Positions 1-21,726 of a DNA stretch of 21,734 nt are shown piece by piece; within the stretch, counting starts at the first letter, position 1, and each line of letters starts with the position of its first letter. The stretch comes from a virus. The stretch is from positions 1 to 21,734 of the IMG/VR virus record IMGVR_UViG_3300003690_000178; one strand, given 5' to 3'. The translations under genes and the position numbers were made by a program. The notes beneath the pieces are model-generated. The model did no database searches. It worked only from the letters and a program-made list of their open reading frames with translations, and was not told where the DNA came from.

Positions 1-111
1 GACCTGCTCCGGCTGATCGATCAACTCATGGGCGGGACCACCACGAAGCGCCGCAACCCGGTTGCACGAGCGCACCGGCATCATGGAAGAGAGGCAACAC
101 ATGGCAACTAA
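1..111 (+). CDS. 3' end of an unidentified gene (partial)
   Basis: Frame 1 is open from the window edge to a TAA at 109-111. It gives a 36-residue C-terminal piece that begins DLLRLIDQLMGGTTTKRRNP and becomes rich in Arg and His. It would overlap the ATG of the next gene by 11 bases, a spacing common in this genome. The first half looks like an amphipathic helix plus a basic linker and could be a real protein end; the His-rich last part is less convincing. No family can be assigned, and the frame may be open by chance because the piece is short. Confidence 0.35.
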   Translation, partial: DLLRLIDQLMGGTTTKRRNPVARAHRHHGREATHGN

Positions 112-1006
112 CCTACAGGACTCGACGGTCGTATTGAGCATCAGGATCGGCGTGCCGGGCAACCGGCGCACGGTGTCCTCGGCCCAGGTCGAGGTCAACG
201 CAGACAAGACGGCCATACGAGTCAGCAAGGAACTGGTGAAGTCCCCAGAGCGGGACGAGGTCATAGCCCTGGACACGGACCTCAAACGGTGGCTCTTCTC
301 GAACTCGCTACCGTCGCGGCTCCTCAAGCCGGGTATGCACCGGCTACCCGTGGCGACCATCGAGGCGTTCGAGACGTATATCGAAGAATATCGGGTCAAG
401 CGCGGTGAGATCATCGATCGTTTCATCGAGTCATACCCGGCCCTGGTCGAGACGGCGCGAGAGACCCTGCGGGACTTGTTCGATGTCACCGACTACCCCC
501 CGGCCGAGGACATGCGCCGGTACTTCGGGTGTGAGTACGCCTATCTCACCCTCGACACCCCCTCGGCGCTGGCGAACGTGTCCAAGGAACTGCTGGCGCG
601 TGAACGGGAGAAGGCGATCGAGGCGGCCCGCCTAGAAGTCACGGAGATTCAGCAGGCCATGCGGCAGGAACTCGCGGACATACTCGATCACGCGGTCGAG
701 CGGTTGGGAATGGAGACGGACGGGACGCGGCGCGGCAAGCCGAGGACGTTCCGCAACACCCTGATAACCGGCATGGCCGACTTCTTCGCCACGTTCGAGG
801 GGCGCAACGTCGTCGGGGATGAGGAACTCGCGGGGCTGGTCGCATCGGCCCGAGAGATAATGAACGGCACGACGCCGGACCGGCTCCGCAGGGACTCGAC
901 GGCGCGGGCGGTGGTCAAGAGCAGCCTGGAGGCCGTGCGGGGCATCATGGACGCCAACACGATGCTCAAGCCCACGCGGAAAATCAGCTTTGAGGATGAG
1001 GTCTGA
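101..1006 (+). CDS. DUF3150-like phage protein
   Basis: A 301-residue soluble protein. ATG 101 is preferred over the in-frame TTG at 62 because GGAAGAGAGG (85-94) sits 6 bases upstream of it. Residues 5-60 look like a beta-rich head (VVLSIRIGVPGNRR, then VEVNADKTAIRVSKEL). Residues 60-135 are a helical region with LKRWLF and LPSRLLKPGMHRLP. Residues 160-205 are a charged, coiled-coil-like helix, followed by a conserved-looking FRNTLITGMADFF segment at 217-230. From memory this pattern matches DUF3150-type phage proteins, which often sit next to an AAA+ ATPase, as here. The biochemical role of that family is not established. It shares the strand with the ATPase 85 bases downstream, separated by a strong hairpin. 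Coding status is very likely; the family name is an inference. Confidence 0.8.
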   Translation: MATNLQDSTVVLSIRIGVPGNRRTVSSAQVEVNADKTAIRVSKELVKSPERDEVIALDTDLKRWLFSNSLPSRLLKPGMHRLPVATIEAFETYIEEYRVKRGEIIDRFIESYPALVETARETLRDLFDVTDYPPAEDMRRYFGCEYAYLTLDTPSALANVSKELLAREREKAIEAARLEVTEIQQAMRQELADILDHAVERLGMETDGTRRGKPRTFRNTLITGMADFFATFEGRNVVGDEELAGLVASAREIMNGTTPDRLRRDSTARAVVKSSLEAVRGIMDANTMLKPTRKISFEDEV

Positions 1007-1091: not shown

Positions 1092-1331
1092 ATGATAGCA
1101 AGCATCATAGACCAGTTCAAGGCAGCCCGGCGCGTCAGCGTGCCGATAGTGGCCGTCACGACGATGGATCAGCAGGCGACTGTACGGAGCCTGGCGGAGC
1201 TAATCAACGGCGATACGCCCGTGCTAGTGTGGGACATGGCGCGCGGGATCGCACGGATCAGCGAGAGCGAACCAGAAGGGTGGCCCGCCGAGTTGTACGG
1301 GGCGGCCACGATCGGAACGCCCACCGGCTGA
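1092..1331 (+). CDS. AAA+ ATPase, N-terminal segment
   Basis: A 79-residue open frame. AAGGAG (1080-1085) lies 6 bases before ATG 1092, an excellent initiation site. Residues 13-48 (ARRVSVPIVAVTTMDQQATV onward, then GDTPVLVWDMARGI) look like alternating strands and a helix of a nucleotide-binding-type N-terminal domain. The frame meets a TGA at 1329-1331. Likely coding is lost slightly earlier, because the -1 frame already reads NAHRLIEDDP from about 1316. As sequenced it would yield only a short truncated product. Confidence 0.6.
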   Translation: MIASIIDQFKAARRVSVPIVAVTTMDQQATVRSLAELINGDTPVLVWDMARGIARISESEPEGWPAELYGAATIGTPTG

Positions 1332-1345
1332 TCGAGGACGACCCG

Positions 1346-1813
1346 ATGGTCTCCCAGGCACTTGGAAACAGTCGTGAGCCCTCAGCAGCGACGGGCCGGA
1401 TGGTGATCCTGTTGGCCCCGTCGCTGACGCTACCGGCGGAGTTGGAGCAGGACGTGTACATGATCGACGAGCCGCTGCCGGACACCGAGGCGCTACAGGC
1501 GGTCGTGGCCCAGACCTTTGAAGACGTCGCGCAGGACTACCCTAGCATTGAAGAGAAGTTGACCCCGCCTGTATCCATACTCGCCAGCGATGCACTCACC
1601 GGCCTCTCCGCGTTCGCGGCGCAACAGGCCAGTGCCCTGAGCATGACACCGGGCGGCATCGACCTCGACGCCCTCTGGGAGCGCAAGCGGCAGATGATCG
1701 ACGCGACGCCGGGCCGAGTCCTACGACAAGATCGGCGGGGTCCAGAACATAAAGTCCTTCCTGCGGGCGATCATCACCGGCAAGCGGGCCCCCAGGGCCA
1801 TCGTTTTCATTGA
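1346..1813 (+). CDS. AAA+ ATPase, middle segment (-1 frame)
   Basis: ATG 1346 is the first Met in this frame, but similar-looking coding extends upstream to about 1316, and no good ribosome-binding site precedes 1346. It is therefore probably not an independent gene. The segment reads GRMVILLAPSLTLPAELEQD, then DVYMIDEPLP and a helical region ending near RQMIDATPG (about 1714). LLAPSLTLPAEL looks like a strand followed by a pre-ATPase linker. After about 1715 this frame turns into unlikely sequence rich in Arg, Gly and His, while the first frame resumes with ESYDKIGG. The last 100 bases of this frame are probably not coding. Confidence 0.5.
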   Translation: MVSQALGNSREPSAATGRMVILLAPSLTLPAELEQDVYMIDEPLPDTEALQAVVAQTFEDVAQDYPSIEEKLTPPVSILASDALTGLSAFAAQQASALSMTPGGIDLDALWERKRQMIDATPGRVLRQDRRGPEHKVLPAGDHHRQAGPQGHRFH

Positions 1814-1829
1814 CGAGATCGAGAAGGCC

Positions 1830-2558
1830 ATGTCCGGGTCATCCGAGGGCTCTCAGGACACGTCAGGCGTCTCCCAGGACTATCTTGGGGTCATGCTTGA
1901 GTACATGCAGGACACGAAGGCGACGGGGATGATCTTCGTCGGCCCGCCCGGTGCGGCCAAGTCGGTCATGGCGAAGGCCGCCGGGAACGAGGCCGGTATC
2001 CCCACGATCAAGCTCGACCTGGGCGGCCTCAAGGCGGCAGGGGGCGGCCTGGTCGGCGGCGCAGAGCGCAGCATACGTCAGGCGCTCAAGATCATCAGCG
2101 CGGTGGGCAGCGACGAAGTGCTCTTCATCGCCACCAGCAACGAGGTCAAGAACCTGCCCCCGGCGCTACGGCGACGGTTCGGCCTAGGGACATACTACTT
2201 CGACCTACCGGATCGAGACGAGAGGGACGCGATCTGGGAAATCTACCTTATGTGGAACGCTCCGAGTGGCGTATACGCTGGCTATTTCAATCGCTCAGGA
2301 TTGGGGGCTCCTCCCGAAGATGACGGTTGGACCGGCGCGGAGATAGAGAAGTGCGTGGACATCGCGGACCGGCTGGGATGCACCTTGCAGGAGGCCGCCG
2401 CGTACATCGTGCCGGTGTCCCGCGTGGACCCGGAAGGAATCGAGCGGCTACGCAAACAGGCCAGCGGTCGGTACATCAGCGCCAGCAAGCCCGGCGTGTA
2501 CCGGATGGCAGACCCGAGCGTACAGGCCCCGAAGGCGGGGAGAAGGATGGAGGTGTGA
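1830..2558 (+). CDS. AAA+ ATPase core, C-terminal segment
   Basis: From ATG 1830 this is 242 residues, but coding clearly begins earlier in the same frame, at about 1716, because Walker B (1800-1817) lies before this ATG. A protein starting at 1830 would lack its catalytic acidic pair. Within these 242 residues are Walker A GPPGAAKS (38-45), a beta-strand with LDLGGLK (62-68), LVGGAERSIRQAL (74-86, matching the helix usually placed before Walker B), sensor-1 ATSN (101-104), LPPALRRRFG (109-118) and FDLPDRDERDAIWEIYL, typical of the strand and helix after the arginine finger. The C-terminal part is a helical lid with DGWTGAEIEKCVDIADR. It is the last plus-strand gene before the terminator at 2634. 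Confidence 0.65.
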   Translation: MSGSSEGSQDTSGVSQDYLGVMLEYMQDTKATGMIFVGPPGAAKSVMAKAAGNEAGIPTIKLDLGGLKAAGGGLVGGAERSIRQALKIISAVGSDEVLFIATSNEVKNLPPALRRRFGLGTYYFDLPDRDERDAIWEIYLMWNAPSGVYAGYFNRSGLGAPPEDDGWTGAEIEKCVDIADRLGCTLQEAAAYIVPVSRVDPEGIERLRKQASGRYISASKPGVYRMADPSVQAPKAGRRMEV

Positions 2559-9482: not shown

Positions 9483-12400
9483 CTAGCTCACCGCCACAAG
9501 CCCGTCGAAGCCGCCCCGCGTCGCCGTGTCGCGCCAGGTCCGCCGGATGTGCTCGTCGAGGTCGTCGATCCCGTAGACGTTGCCCATGATCTGCATGGTG
9601 ATGTTTAGGACTTGCTGGGCGCCCTTGTTACGCCCGGCGGGTGTGATGGTCTCCCCGCCATGGACGACCGCCAATTGAGGTGCCCCGACGGGTCCGCCGA
9701 CAACACCACCGCCCTGGAACTCAGAGAGGGCGACTATGGGATGCCCTCTCTTTGTAGTAGAAAGCAGCATCTCCTCAAGAACCTTTGCCAATCCTGGGGG
9801 TATACCCCCCAGGAACCCGATAATCGTCTCTCTGGCAGTCTTGGTGATCCCAGAGGGGCGTATCCGCGACGCGTCTTTCATCTCGGTTGTGGCCGTCTTC
9901 AACGCCTGGAGCCTGGCCTCCTGTTCCGCGAGGGCCGCATTCTCTTCCAGGAGAACATCCCTCACGTCCTGCGCCGCCTGTAGGAATTCATACTTGCCGA
10001 TTGTACCATCCGCGAGTTTTTGGATGACGCTACCCAACCCCTCCTCCGCGAGCACAGTCATGGCATCTCTGAGGTGTCCCAGTACGGGGTCGAGTTCGAG
10101 GGCCGCCAGTTTGTCGAGCACCAGGGCGGACTGTGCTTCCGTCAACCCTGGGACCAATCTTTCGGTTATCACATCTGCGATCTCCACCATGGCGTCCCGG
10201 ACGTCCTGGGCCACCGCGATAAACTCCTGCTCCGTCAACATCCCCTCTTGTAACTGGCGAATGTAGACCCCGAGGCCCTTTTCGGCCAGCAGGGTCATCG
10301 CCTCGCGGAGCGGACCCAGTTCGTTCTCTAGGCCCATGGCAGAGAGCTTCGCCGATACCATTTCCCTTTTCAACTCGTCAGTAGCCCCGATTAACCGCTG
10401 GGCAGGCATACTGAGTTCTTTGAACTTATTCTTCAACCCTTCCGCTGCATCCATGAGCTCCGTTGCTGATACAGCGCCATCAATGAACTGCTGGACTAGG
10501 TCCGCCATTTGATTATCTATCAGTAAGCTGACAGCATCCCCGAAGGTGCCCAGGGTTTTCTGTGTCTCAAAGGTCTCCAGGGCAGTACGTGCTATCTCCT
10601 GTCGAAGCTGGAACCAAGAAGGGGTGAGCTTTCGTTCAAGTGCGGCCCTTAAGGACTCGGACGTGAACATGAAATCTTCCATAGACAGCCGACCCTTATC
10701 GAGCGCAATGATGTAGTTGCCCAAACCTTGGTCAGCCATCAAAGCCAGGGCATCCCTGAGCGGGCCAGTAGTCTTCTCGAACTCCACCCCAGCTGCTGCA
10801 TTGTCTATCAGTTGCGCGTGCATCTCCCTTAGAGAAGGGACTACCTCATCCTTGATCACAGTTGCTAAATTAGTACTCACCGCCGTACCTGCATCCTCAA
10901 CCGTAGAAGTGAATCCGTCGATCGCTTCTTTTGCATCCTCAGCGGCCTTACTAACATCATCCCCCAATCCCGCAAAGTCAGGCCCAATGTTAACAATACT
11001 CTCCCGGATTTTCTTGAGTTGTCCCGCTACGTTATCCGCGAAGCCCTCCGCACTCTTCCCGACATTCTCGAAGGCGTCGGCAAAGGTGTCAGCTAACTCG
11101 CCAAGCTCTTGGATGGCAACACCGGGTAGGAGATTGAGCCCCCTTATGACAAGGTTGATGATGGGCATGAAAAGCATGTTATACCAGTCTGCTATTGTCT
11201 GACCCACATGCTCAAATATGCCTGGTATCTTGTCTCGGAAGATGACGAAGGCAGCAACGATACCCGCAACGGCAGCAATGATAATCGCTGCGGTAGCGCC
11301 GATCGGGTTAGCTATCATAGCAACATTGAAGCGCCACTGGGCCGCCGTAGCCAGGTTAGTGCCAAGGACTAACGCCTTGAAAGCGAACGAAGCTCCCTGT
11401 ACACCCACTGCAATTCCAGGCATAACAAGGCTAGTAACCATAAGCACTGCCGCCAGAGCCGCCATACCAACCGTGGCCAGACCAATCCACCTCACCAGGT
11501 CCGGGTGTTGCTTGATCCAGTCTTCCATCGATGCGATCAGCGGCCTCACCGAGTCCACAAAGTCTGTCACGGCAGGCGCCAGCGCCTTACCGAGTTCGAT
11601 TGACACACTCTCGACGGCAGATTTGACGAGGAGCATCTGCCCCGCAAAGGTGGCCAGTTGGGCATCGGAGATGCGCTTGGCGGTCCCGCCAGAGTCCTCC
11701 ATCTCTTTGGTCAATGTCACAAGGGCATCGGACCCCTGCGACACCAACGCAAGCATCCCCGGCCCGGCCCGCAGTCCGAAGATAGTCATGGCGTCAGCCG
11801 CGCTCAAACCCGTCTCTTCAAACTGTCGGATTATGTCTGTGAGCGGCAGAAGATTCCCGGCTGTGTCTAGCACCTGGACTCCCAGGTCTTTCATTATACC
11901 GGCGGCCTCTTTCGATGGATTGAGCATCCTGGTGATGGCCCCGCGTAGGCTAGTGCCCGCCATCGTCGCCTGGATACCCGCATTACCCATGAGCGCCAGC
12001 GCGGCGGCTGTCTCCTCGAATCCTACCCCGGCAGCAGAGGCGACCGGGCCCGCGAACTTGAACGCCTGACCCAACTGCTGGAGGTTGGTGTTCGCGGACG
12101 TGAAGGCTGTCACAAGCACGTCATTGGCATGGCCAAGCTCTTCTACGCTAAGCTGCATCCCGGCCATGACGTTGGTCACGATGTCGGCGGCCTGCCCCAA
12201 CTCCAGGGAACCGGCAGCAGCCAACTGGAGCACGGACGGCAGGGCTTCGATAGAGGTCTGGGCGTCATTGCCCGCCATGGCCAGGAAGGCCAGCGCTTCG
12301 GCGGACTGGGTGGCCGTGAAGATGGTCGTGCGGCCCATGTCACGAGCAGCAGTCTCCAGGGCTTTGAGTTCTTCGGCTGTGGCATTGGAGACAGCGCCCG

Positions 12401-12608
12401 CCCGTACAAGCTGTTTCTCAAAGGAGGCGAAGGACTTCAACGACACAGCAGCCAGACCGATCAGGGCGGCGGCCGGGACCGCCAAGGACCGGCCCAAGTC
12501 CCCGGCCTGTGTGCCGAGCTTCCGCATCCGATCACCCATGCGCCCGAAGGCCCGCCCCATCTGGGCGTCCTGTGCGGTGACAAGGATTTCGATCTTGTTT
12601 TCAGCCAT
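9483..12608 (-). CDS. Tail tape measure protein (TP901 family)
   Basis: A 1041-residue protein that sets tail length and is ejected with the DNA. Residues about 60-235 match the TP901 tape-measure core: FASFEKQLVRAGAVSNATAE, FTATQSAEALAFLAMAG, LGQAFKFAGPVASAAGVGFE and TSLRGAITRML. Likely membrane-active segments are 371-399 and 431-456, with a further hydrophobic stretch near 477-499. Residues about 588-890 hold four related units of 72-79 residues. The C-terminus has a Gly-rich segment (GGGVVGGPVGAPQ) and VVHGGETITPAGR, typical of tape measure ends. At about 1.5 angstroms per residue the length would suggest a tail near 150 nm. The ATG overlaps the stop of the frameshifted chaperone product by 8 bases and no strong ribosome-binding site precedes it. 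Confidence 0.95.
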   Translation of the reverse strand: MAENKIEILVTAQDAQMGRAFGRMGDRMRKLGTQAGDLGRSLAVPAAALIGLAAVSLKSFASFEKQLVRAGAVSNATAEELKALETAARDMGRTTIFTATQSAEALAFLAMAGNDAQTSIEALPSVLQLAAAGSLELGQAADIVTNVMAGMQLSVEELGHANDVLVTAFTSANTNLQQLGQAFKFAGPVASAAGVGFEETAAALALMGNAGIQATMAGTSLRGAITRMLNPSKEAAGIMKDLGVQVLDTAGNLLPLTDIIRQFEETGLSAADAMTIFGLRAGPGMLALVSQGSDALVTLTKEMEDSGGTAKRISDAQLATFAGQMLLVKSAVESVSIELGKALAPAVTDFVDSVRPLIASMEDWIKQHPDLVRWIGLATVGMAALAAVLMVTSLVMPGIAVGVQGASFAFKALVLGTNLATAAQWRFNVAMIANPIGATAAIIIAAVAGIVAAFVIFRDKIPGIFEHVGQTIADWYNMLFMPIINLVIRGLNLLPGVAIQELGELADTFADAFENVGKSAEGFADNVAGQLKKIRESIVNIGPDFAGLGDDVSKAAEDAKEAIDGFTSTVEDAGTAVSTNLATVIKDEVVPSLREMHAQLIDNAAAGVEFEKTTGPLRDALALMADQGLGNYIIALDKGRLSMEDFMFTSESLRAALERKLTPSWFQLRQEIARTALETFETQKTLGTFGDAVSLLIDNQMADLVQQFIDGAVSATELMDAAEGLKNKFKELSMPAQRLIGATDELKREMVSAKLSAMGLENELGPLREAMTLLAEKGLGVYIRQLQEGMLTEQEFIAVAQDVRDAMVEIADVITERLVPGLTEAQSALVLDKLAALELDPVLGHLRDAMTVLAEEGLGSVIQKLADGTIGKYEFLQAAQDVRDVLLEENAALAEQEARLQALKTATTEMKDASRIRPSGITKTARETIIGFLGGIPPGLAKVLEEMLLSTTKRGHPIVALSEFQGGGVVGGPVGAPQLAVVHGGETITPAGRNKGAQQVLNITMQIMGNVYGIDDLDEHIRRTWRDTATRGGFDGLVAVS
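9939..10847 (-). repeat. Four degenerate repeats in the tape measure C-terminal half
   Basis: Four units start near residues 588, 660, 733 and 817 of the tape measure protein. Each has the core G-x-[LF]-x-[DE]-A, then a hydrophobic helix, a Gly-Leu-Gly turn (degenerate in unit 2), and an acidic helix ending A-x-x-[VL]-[RK]. The core hexamers are GPLRDA (615), GTFGDA (687), GPLREA (765) and GHLRDA (844), spaced 72, 78 and 79 residues. Units 3 and 4 share QDVRD and are the most alike; unit 2 is most diverged. Tandem duplication of a helical spacer is the likely origin. Confidence 0.75.
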
Positions 12609-18040: not shown

Positions 18041-18223
18041 TTATCTATGTACCCGCTTGTGGATGCCCACGCCTCTCACCGTGTCGAATGATTCTCCGCA
18101 GATGTTGCAGGTCAGGCCCGCAGACTGGACCCAAGTGGCCTCATCAAACCAGTTGCTGCACCGATGGCACTGCCGGGCCCCAGGATCGGCTTGCTCGCCA
18201 CATGTCTCGCAGGTCTTCATCAT
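18041..18223 (-). CDS. Zinc-ribbon plus C2H2 zinc-finger mini-protein
   Basis: A 60-residue protein beginning with two Met codons (18223 and 18220); AGGCGGG precedes them. It has two metal sites. Cys5, Cys8, Cys19 and Cys22 form a zinc-ribbon-like CX2C-X10-CX2C. Cys39, Cys42, His55 and His59 form a classical C2H2 finger (CNICGESFDTVRGVGIHKRV then H), with the expected X12 and X3 spacings and aromatic Phe46. C2H2 fingers are rare in bacteria and phages and usually bind nucleic acid or protein. It lies between two virion genes, so it could be a virion-packaged or late regulatory protein. Confidence 0.85.
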   Translation of the reverse strand: MMKTCETCGEQADPGARQCHRCSNWFDEATWVQSAGLTCNICGESFDTVRGVGIHKRVHR

Positions 18224-20322: not shown

Positions 20323-21726
20323 CTACGAGCGGGTTGCCAGGGCGACGTATGGGCTAACGGTGTTCGAGCCGTTTCTCGGGGTCAGCGCCGACGTCAGCCA
20401 CGGGCGGCCATCCAGGCGCTGGATGAAGCGGTACACCATCTGGTCCGCCGTAAAGTTCACATGCTCGGACCGCGCCATGGTCATCGCCTGCCGGTCCCCG
20501 ATCAGGTAGTGGGAGAGGTCTACGAAGTACAGGTCACCGGCCGTGCCGAGGGTCTGCGCCTTCTCGGTGAATATGACCGGCCGCCCCAGGATGCTCACCG
20601 GCGGCGCCCCCACTCCGTTTGAGAGCCATACCGCCCCACCCCCGGTCCCGACGTTCAGGGCCATGGTCGCCAACTGGGGGAAGATGTCGGTGTGTCCGAT
20701 CCAGACCGCCCGGTTGATGCTCGCGGGCAACATCCGGGAGTACATGTTCAGGATGTTCTCCCAGACGATGGTCGTGGCCGCCTGACCGGTCTCCTTCGCG
20801 ATGGAGATCAGGGCGTTGGCGTTCAGGATGCCGAGGGGCTGTCCCACGCCGGTGCCGTTGATGAAGGCGTCGTCCTCGAAGTATGCGATCGCCTGCGGGT
20901 ACAATGCCAGGATCAGGGCTTCCAGCGAGATTGCCGAATCCCCCAGAAGCTCGTTGCTGACGACCGAATAGGCGGTCAGCTTGTTCGCCACCAACCGGAC
21001 CGCTGAGAACGTCGGCTGGTTGGTGGTCGAGGAGACGGTCCCCCCCTCTGCTACCCAAGTACCGGACACGCCACCGAAGACGTTCGTCGCATGGGACGTG
21101 TCTCGGATCGAGGGGAACCGCAGGCTTGCCGATCCCATCGGGATCACCCTAGCCCTGGGCCGGATCACTGCCTCTTCCAGCGCGATCATCAGGAGCTCGG
21201 CCCGGAACTCTTCGGGGACCAGAAGGCCACCGTCACCGGAGATCGTCTCGGACAAGTCCTTGAGACGGGCGTCCTTCTGATCCTGTGTGAAGATCGACCT
21301 CAGAGAGGCCAGCAGGAACTCGTCCAGCCCGGCTTCTCCCCAGCCCTCCATACCAACGCCGGGCCCCTGTCCGGTGGCCGCGATCTGCCGGAGCGTCTTG
21401 CGGTCGGCGCCCAGGTGGTTGTACATGGCCTTTGAGCCACGTAGTGAATCGTTGTGCTGCCCCTCGCTCATGGGTAGCCTGGTCATGCGGCCCACCGGCT
21501 GCTTGACGAAGCCACTTTCCTCCAGGAGTTTCACGAAAGCCTTCGCCTTCGCCCCCTCTGCCTGTTCCCCGAGCTCGGGATCGGCGGCCGTAGCCGCTTT
21601 GCTATACGACTCGATGAATGCCGCCGCCTTGGCGGGATCGTCGAAGACATCCTGAATCTTGACCGGGTCGTCCAGGAACGCGCGGAGGTCTTCGGGGTTA
21701 GTGGGAACAGCTACCTTTGTGACCAT
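20323..21726 (-). CDS. HK97-fold major capsid protein
   Basis: A 467-residue protein that is complete at its N-terminus at the window edge (ATG 21726). Residues 1-140 form a charged helical delta-like (scaffold) region. GDGGLLVPEEFRAELL (164-179) marks the start of the mature shell domain, and a maturation protease would be expected to cut somewhere before it. Later hallmarks are ARVIPMGSASLRFPS (192-206), SNELLGDSA (257-265), and FINGTGVGQPLGIL (288-301), a defining motif of the Phage_capsid family. Pattern, length and placement at the head of the structural operon agree. The protease and portal would lie beyond the right edge. Confidence 0.95.
   Translation of the reverse strand: MVTKVAVPTNPEDLRAFLDDPVKIQDVFDDPAKAAAFIESYSKAATAADPELGEQAEGAKAKAFVKLLEESGFVKQPVGRMTRLPMSEGQHNDSLRGSKAMYNHLGADRKTLRQIAATGQGPGVGMEGWGEAGLDEFLLASLRSIFTQDQKDARLKDLSETISGDGGLLVPEEFRAELLMIALEEAVIRPRARVIPMGSASLRFPSIRDTSHATNVFGGVSGTWVAEGGTVSSTTNQPTFSAVRLVANKLTAYSVVSNELLGDSAISLEALILALYPQAIAYFEDDAFINGTGVGQPLGILNANALISIAKETGQAATTIVWENILNMYSRMLPASINRAVWIGHTDIFPQLATMALNVGTGGGAVWLSNGVGAPPVSILGRPVIFTEKAQTLGTAGDLYFVDLSHYLIGDRQAMTMARSEHVNFTADQMVYRFIQRLDGRPWLTSALTPRNGSNTVSPYVALATRS

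Follow-up and report, generated by a model that had tools for sequence, protein, structure and literature searches.

A family of Ycf46-like phage tandem-AAA ATPases carries a second AAA+ domain in which two adjacent blocks of the core have traded places. All 132 open reading frames (ORFs) that we assigned to this family place Walker B first, Walker A next, and sensor 1 last, and none has the order Walker A, Walker B, sensor 1. The swap has a single origin, it left the catalytic residues intact, and the predicted fold is that of an AAA+ domain; we therefore regard the protein as AAA+ by its residues, fold prediction, and ancestry, and as atypical by its motif order. As modelled, the swapped domain is very likely an active ATPase.

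The window ATPase and its motif order

The source DNA, hereafter the window, comprises positions 1 to 21,734 of the IMG/VR record IMGVR_UViG_3300003690_000178, given as one strand of 21,734 nucleotides. It belongs to a tailed phage with a major head protein (20326-21726) and a tape-measure protein (9486-12608) on the minus strand. On visual inspection, a GLGVYIRQLQEGMLTEQEF-type repeat recurs in several diverged copies over the C-terminal half of the tape-measure protein (9483-12608, minus strand). Among the structural genes, a 60-aa ORF (18041-18223, minus strand) contains several Cys-x-x-Cys pairs and looks like two small zinc fingers, and a PHROG comparison returned no match for it.

Intact relatives of the window ATPase are single tandem-AAA ORFs of about 500 aa, in which the permuted domain is the second half, a context on which the original prediction was silent. 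In the window, the gene lies on the plus strand in three frames: 1092-1331 (frame 3), about 1316-1711 (frame 2), and 1713-2558 (frame 3). The N-terminal degenerate, D1-like AAA domain starts in the first of these (1092..1310), which aligns to the intact relative L002 from its Met, and continues in the second (1316..1711) after a deletion of ~76 nt, where it matches positions 151-258 of phrog_8638 at 6e-6. The C-terminal, D2-like AAA+ domain with the permuted core fills 1713..2558 and ends with the stop codon; its match to Pfam AAA (1.4e-15) is broken into three stretches. When compared to L002, the gene is without about 76 nt and about 20 nt at two points, and because these deletions split it over frames, the open frame that holds the core has no ATG, GTG, or TTG ahead of the Walker B motif. 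Programmed frameshifting was considered for this three-frame gene and is ruled out, with both of these segments missing relative to L002. Identity to L002 was 85% in the first search and is 89.5% for the core over 267 aligned codons (dN 0.088, dS 0.56), a codon comparison by which the core is under purifying selection. Either the window copy was disrupted recently or its sequence is misassembled, and the permuted order does not depend on this. Permuted copies at L011, L131, L138, and in the genome G034 (C191:31982-33526) are also frame-split or have an internal stop, so decay is not unique to the window copy.

Within the D2-like domain, Block B (1791..1919) consists of β3 with Walker B (IVFIDE, 1800-1817), a loop, and α3. 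It is followed by Block A (1920..2111), with β1, Walker A (GPPGAAKS, 1941-1964), α1, β2, pore loop 1, and α2, and then by Block C (2112..2555), with β4 and sensor 1 (ATSN, 2130-2141), the LRRRF Arg-finger motif (2166-2180), β5, and the lid, which holds a WTGAE motif (2328-2342); all lie on the plus strand. These blocks were assigned via the profile positions of the corresponding L002 blocks and, for Block C, also from residue conservation. The original prediction had placed IVFIDE ahead of GPPGAAKS, with ATSN and LRRRF after Walker A and without another acidic-pair strand in the stretch from Walker A to sensor 1, and this arrangement stands in a single open frame. The Walker A Lys is separated from the sensor-1 Asn by 57 residues in the window and by 57-60 in 95 relatives, compared with 53 + 44 in canonical relatives, in which β3-α3 lies in between. 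Its reading that β3-α3 had moved forward agrees with profile matches that are out of order both ways, with junctions that are constant in the family, with a predicted secondary structure that corresponds block for block, and with couplings between the moved strand and the elements normally next to it. The Ala it pointed out ahead of the Walker A Lys is real but polymorphic (60 Ala, 29 Gly, 5 Ser, and 1 Cys among the 95), and its mention of similar phage sequences is borne out, as the family occurs in phages.

Profile, fold, and coupling evidence for the block swap

A canonical profile, built from six canonical phage relatives, matches each permuted protein in four pieces that are out of order and yet cover it completely. 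In L002, residues 42-291 correspond to profile positions 12-276, residues 300-344 to 353-396, residues 343-405 to 294-353, and residues 409-521 to 397-527, and the reciprocal profile of the permuted family gives the mirror picture. It follows from the order of these pieces that the adjacent blocks A (β1-α2) and B (β3-α3) have been exchanged, with the first domain unmoved at the N terminus and the lid unmoved at the C terminus. Because the displaced blocks score by themselves (E about 1e-7 to 1e-18) and 132 ORFs keep one order, the arrangement is not due to chance. The rearrangement is a swap of adjacent internal blocks with no re-joining of ends, rather than a classical circular permutation, in which the old termini are joined and new ones opened.

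Existing profiles give the same picture. A canonical relative matches phrog_8638 collinearly over 15-544 (4e-161), whereas a permuted protein matches it in four stretches (4.5e-39 in total), in which block B precedes block A; in L002, block B corresponds to 366-406 and block A to 308-364, and permuted proteins do not yield a full-length collinear match. The best match of the permuted-family profile in the PDB sequence set, Cdc48 (E 2.5e-33), is also out of order, in pieces 309-360, 265-311, and 369-447. None of the matched Pfam, PHROGs, NCBIfam, and PADLOC families is collinear with the permuted proteins. The IetA model of PADLOC matches a permuted protein weakly (8.4e-5, 20 bits) and only in the part after Walker A, and NCBIfam IteA is also a weak match; similarity of the IetA type is probably general AAA similarity.

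Structure prediction, which the original prediction had proposed as a check, was run on L002 with AlphaFold2, using a 95-sequence alignment that leaves out Tunturi_3, and yields an AAA+ fold with the expected elements in permuted order (pLDDT 92.5, pTM 0.90). The second domain of the model begins with a strand at 260-264 (Walker B), a helix at 284-298, a strand at 302-307, the P-loop, and a helix at 314-325, and continues with a strand at 329-332, a helix at 347-362, and a strand at 367-373 (sensor 1). The canonical control L012 (pLDDT 93.0, pTM 0.85) shows equal elements in the normal order, and VIA-align matches both models to p97-type tandem AAA proteins; the predicted fold of L002 is accordingly that of a p97-like tandem AAA protein. 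The D2 chain of p97 (6g2x) aligns with the permuted model over 197 residues at 2.5 Å (Z 16.6) versus 250 residues at 2.5 Å for the canonical model (Z 25.2), and Vps4 aligns with the permuted model over 211 residues at 3.1 Å (Z 17.0), matches by which the predicted model has the three-dimensional AAA+ fold. In these models, the drop from 250 to 197 aligned residues roughly equals in length block B together with the segment ahead of β1, which is shortened, and this is the size expected if block B alone is out of sequence.

Direct-coupling analysis of the 95 sequences returns β1-β5, β3-β4, and β1-β4 as the top strand pairs, all of them neighbours in the AAA+ sheet. The start of β3 (259, 260) is further coupled with the end of α2 (363, 364), through A260-G363 and R259-S364, at a junction that is continuous chain in canonical proteins. 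These covariation signals suggest that the moved strand occupies its normal sheet slot. Together with the strand assignment and the superposition, they point to a position of the DE motif next to the P-loop, the AlphaFold2 model and the couplings sharing one alignment.

Conservation, ancestry, and gene neighbourhood

Contigs of viruses and of bacterial genomes were searched and yielded 132 permuted and 126 canonical ORFs; the first 131 of the permuted set comprise 119 distinct sequences. The permuted members come from viral contigs, from the isolated phage Tunturi_3 of an acidobacterium (XOB77284.1), and from bacterial MAGs labelled as Acidobacteria/Bryobacterales, Nitrospirales, Deltaproteobacteria, Myxococcales, and Phycisphaerae. 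All 132 have identical junctions, and nearly all have uninterrupted frames, so that the conservation of order for which the original prediction had wanted homologues collected is found throughout. Homologues of canonical order, which it had weighed against itself, do exist, but only outside the clade (in the sister group and beyond); none occurs inside, and no member of the permuted clade was found with an additional Walker B block following Walker A. ORFs with a duplicated A or B block, as intermediates, number 0 in the 258 classified ORFs, with none in the sister set. In the sampled phylum the gene is uncommon, with 2 of 199 genomes carrying it, the centre genome among them. As to a possible prophage setting of the bacterial copies, Pfam Terminase_6N is present in five of eight genomes and never on the contig that carries the ATPase.

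Across 95 aligned members, the Walker A Lys, the Walker B Asp and Glu, the sensor-1 Asn (N374), and R386 of LRRRF are invariant, and the residue after the Walker A Lys is Ser or Thr in every case. The WTGAE motif, in the sensor 2 region, is kept in about 90% of them; the roles of sensor 1, Arg finger, and sensor 2 were assigned by position. The residue before the Walker A Lys is Ala in most members, and pore loop 1 has Leu in place of an aromatic residue in 78 of 95. This Leu is common to several canonical sister proteins and therefore predates the swap, and its being a consequence of the swap is ruled out.

In a tree inferred with IQ-TREE on columns set in homologous order (61 taxa, ultrafast bootstrap), the permuted proteins form one clade with a bootstrap of 100, the sister group is supported at 97, and the joint clade at 99. 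Support for the permuted clade had been weaker (0.81) in an earlier tree that did not include the sister group, and a FastTree run that did include it showed 0.0 at this node after re-rooting; the node was settled by IQ-TREE on the 61 taxa. With every block homologous, the permuted proteins share ancestry with the canonical members of phrog_8638, and the swap originated once. The sister is a canonical group made up of plasmid proteins of Ca. Manganitrophus (CP114554.1, WDT73634.1) and Thermovibrio (NC_014917.1, WP_013524972.1) and 26 viral loci (L264-L289). It shares with the permuted family the tandem-AAA architecture, a gene module with DUF1257, DUF2997, and usually DUF3150, and, in several members, the pore loop GSLVGESE and the sensor ATCN. 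Unlike the permuted family, it has Walker A before Walker B, a Gly ahead of the Lys, and unswapped blocks. Canonical relatives of the ATPase are also encoded by 813 plasmid records, among them numerous conjugative Enterobacteriaceae plasmids.

The upstream neighbour of the window ATPase is a DUF3150-like partner gene (101..1006, plus strand, 301 aa), which matches a profile of the partner cluster from the other permuted loci (without L020 and L021) at E 1.4e-96; one member of this cluster matches Pfam DUF3150, at 9.4e-8. A DUF3150-like gene is found at 113 of 123 permuted loci, 18 of 26 sister viral loci, and 1 of 87 other viral canonical loci. DUF2997-like genes are present at 73 of the 123 permuted and 25 of the 26 sister viral loci, and DUF1257-like genes likewise at 25 of these 26. 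Because the sister viral loci carry the module too, the swap arose in a gene that was already part of a DUF1257/DUF2997/DUF3150 module. No paper on DUF3150 was found in the open literature, a search with subscription journals mostly outside its range. A gene for an NrdG-like radical-SAM activase lies near the permuted ATPase at 32 of 123 loci (e.g., L115:8648-9568), and a Rhodococcus plasmid module has a similar gene alongside a canonical ATPase (L261).

Proposed mechanism, alternatives, and meaning

We propose that in the second AAA+ domain of an ancestor, the adjacent blocks A and B traded places to give B-A with the flanks left in place, possibly by tandem duplication of A-B and subsequent loss of the outer copies. 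Block B would then refold into its usual sheet slot between β4 and β2, and the active site would be rebuilt with altered connections, from α3 to β1 and from α2 to β4. The first domain, which by sequence has no P-loop, aligns with p97 D1; p97 carries P-loops in both domains. In a p97-like ring, this degenerate domain may serve as the scaffold on which the permuted domain hydrolyses ATP. The cellular role is probably protein remodelling, and the target may be a protein or nucleoprotein that is remodelled together with the DUF3150-like and the small DUF1257 and DUF2997 proteins, although such a role within the module, suggested by gene neighbourhood, is put forward tentatively.

A different account of the early DE strand would assign it elsewhere, for example to the end of the first domain, which is itself AAA-like, and not to the Walker B of D2; the second AAA domain would then be without β3-α3 and amount to a degenerate or inactive P-loop protein. 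We consider this very unlikely, as block B aligns at profile positions 353-396, in D2, and the first domain alone already fills 12-276, while all catalytic residues are invariant and the moved strand couples to β4 and the end of α2. That the order is peculiar to the window, through an assembly error or the rearrangement of a pseudogene, might be suspected from the two frame-shifting deletions, but it is already contradicted by the junctions shared, in frames nearly all uninterrupted, among 132 ORFs drawn from independent assemblies, from an isolated phage, and from the genomes of bacteria, and its probability is close to nil.

More weight, though still little, can be given to an AAA+ fold without productive ATP hydrolysis, serving as a nucleotide-gated assembly scaffold for the DUF3150 module. 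The replacement of Gly by Ala ahead of the P-loop Lys, seen in 60 of the 95 sequences, and the frequent Leu of pore loop 1 would suit such a scaffold. The Leu, however, is older than the swap, being found in canonical sister proteins, and a non-hydrolysing scaffold need not keep the Walker B Glu, the sensor-1 Asn, and the LRRRF Arg, all of which are invariant. We thus judge this an improbable explanation and favour an active ATPase with a swapped core.

Among known systems, phrog_8638 and the phage ycf46 proteins (BFVD A0A6J5NS46 and Pseudomonas phage SM1 A0A0U3CC34) are homologous to the permuted family over the full length, and the latter are its best viral structure matches; unlike the permuted family, the phrog_8638 profile has the canonical order, and viral loci of this type are mostly without a DUF3150 partner. 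The type II AAA proteins Cdc48/p97, Rix7/NVL, and Drg1 are likewise tandem AAA proteins, with the D2 core superposing as above, but their motif order is canonical, and the similarity here is one of architecture. Circularly permuted GTPases of the YlqF/RsgA type are P-loop NTPases with nucleotide-binding motifs in a changed order; they belong to the GTPase class, not to AAA+, whereas the permuted ATPase has traded two adjacent inner blocks with the outer parts untouched. In the open literature, with subscription journals mostly outside the search, we found no description of a permuted AAA+ or P-loop core. The family is likely to be the first recognised natural AAA+ family permuted by an adjacent inner-block swap, having a single origin, spread across the phages and mobile elements of several phyla, and active in the module of its unpermuted sister.

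The topology of the AAA+ core is usually held as fixed, and profile libraries presume its motif order, such that collinear profiles, when used for annotation, break up the permuted proteins or score them too low (56.6 bits against Pfam AAA, compared with 98.6 bits for a canonical relative). Here, a large clade broke this order and kept every catalytic residue, beside a canonical sister in a like gene module. If this reading is true, the two would form a natural permuted and unpermuted pair with which to test how an AAA+ motor depends on its chain connectivity, and which of the fold's connections are required for hydrolysing ATP and coupling force.
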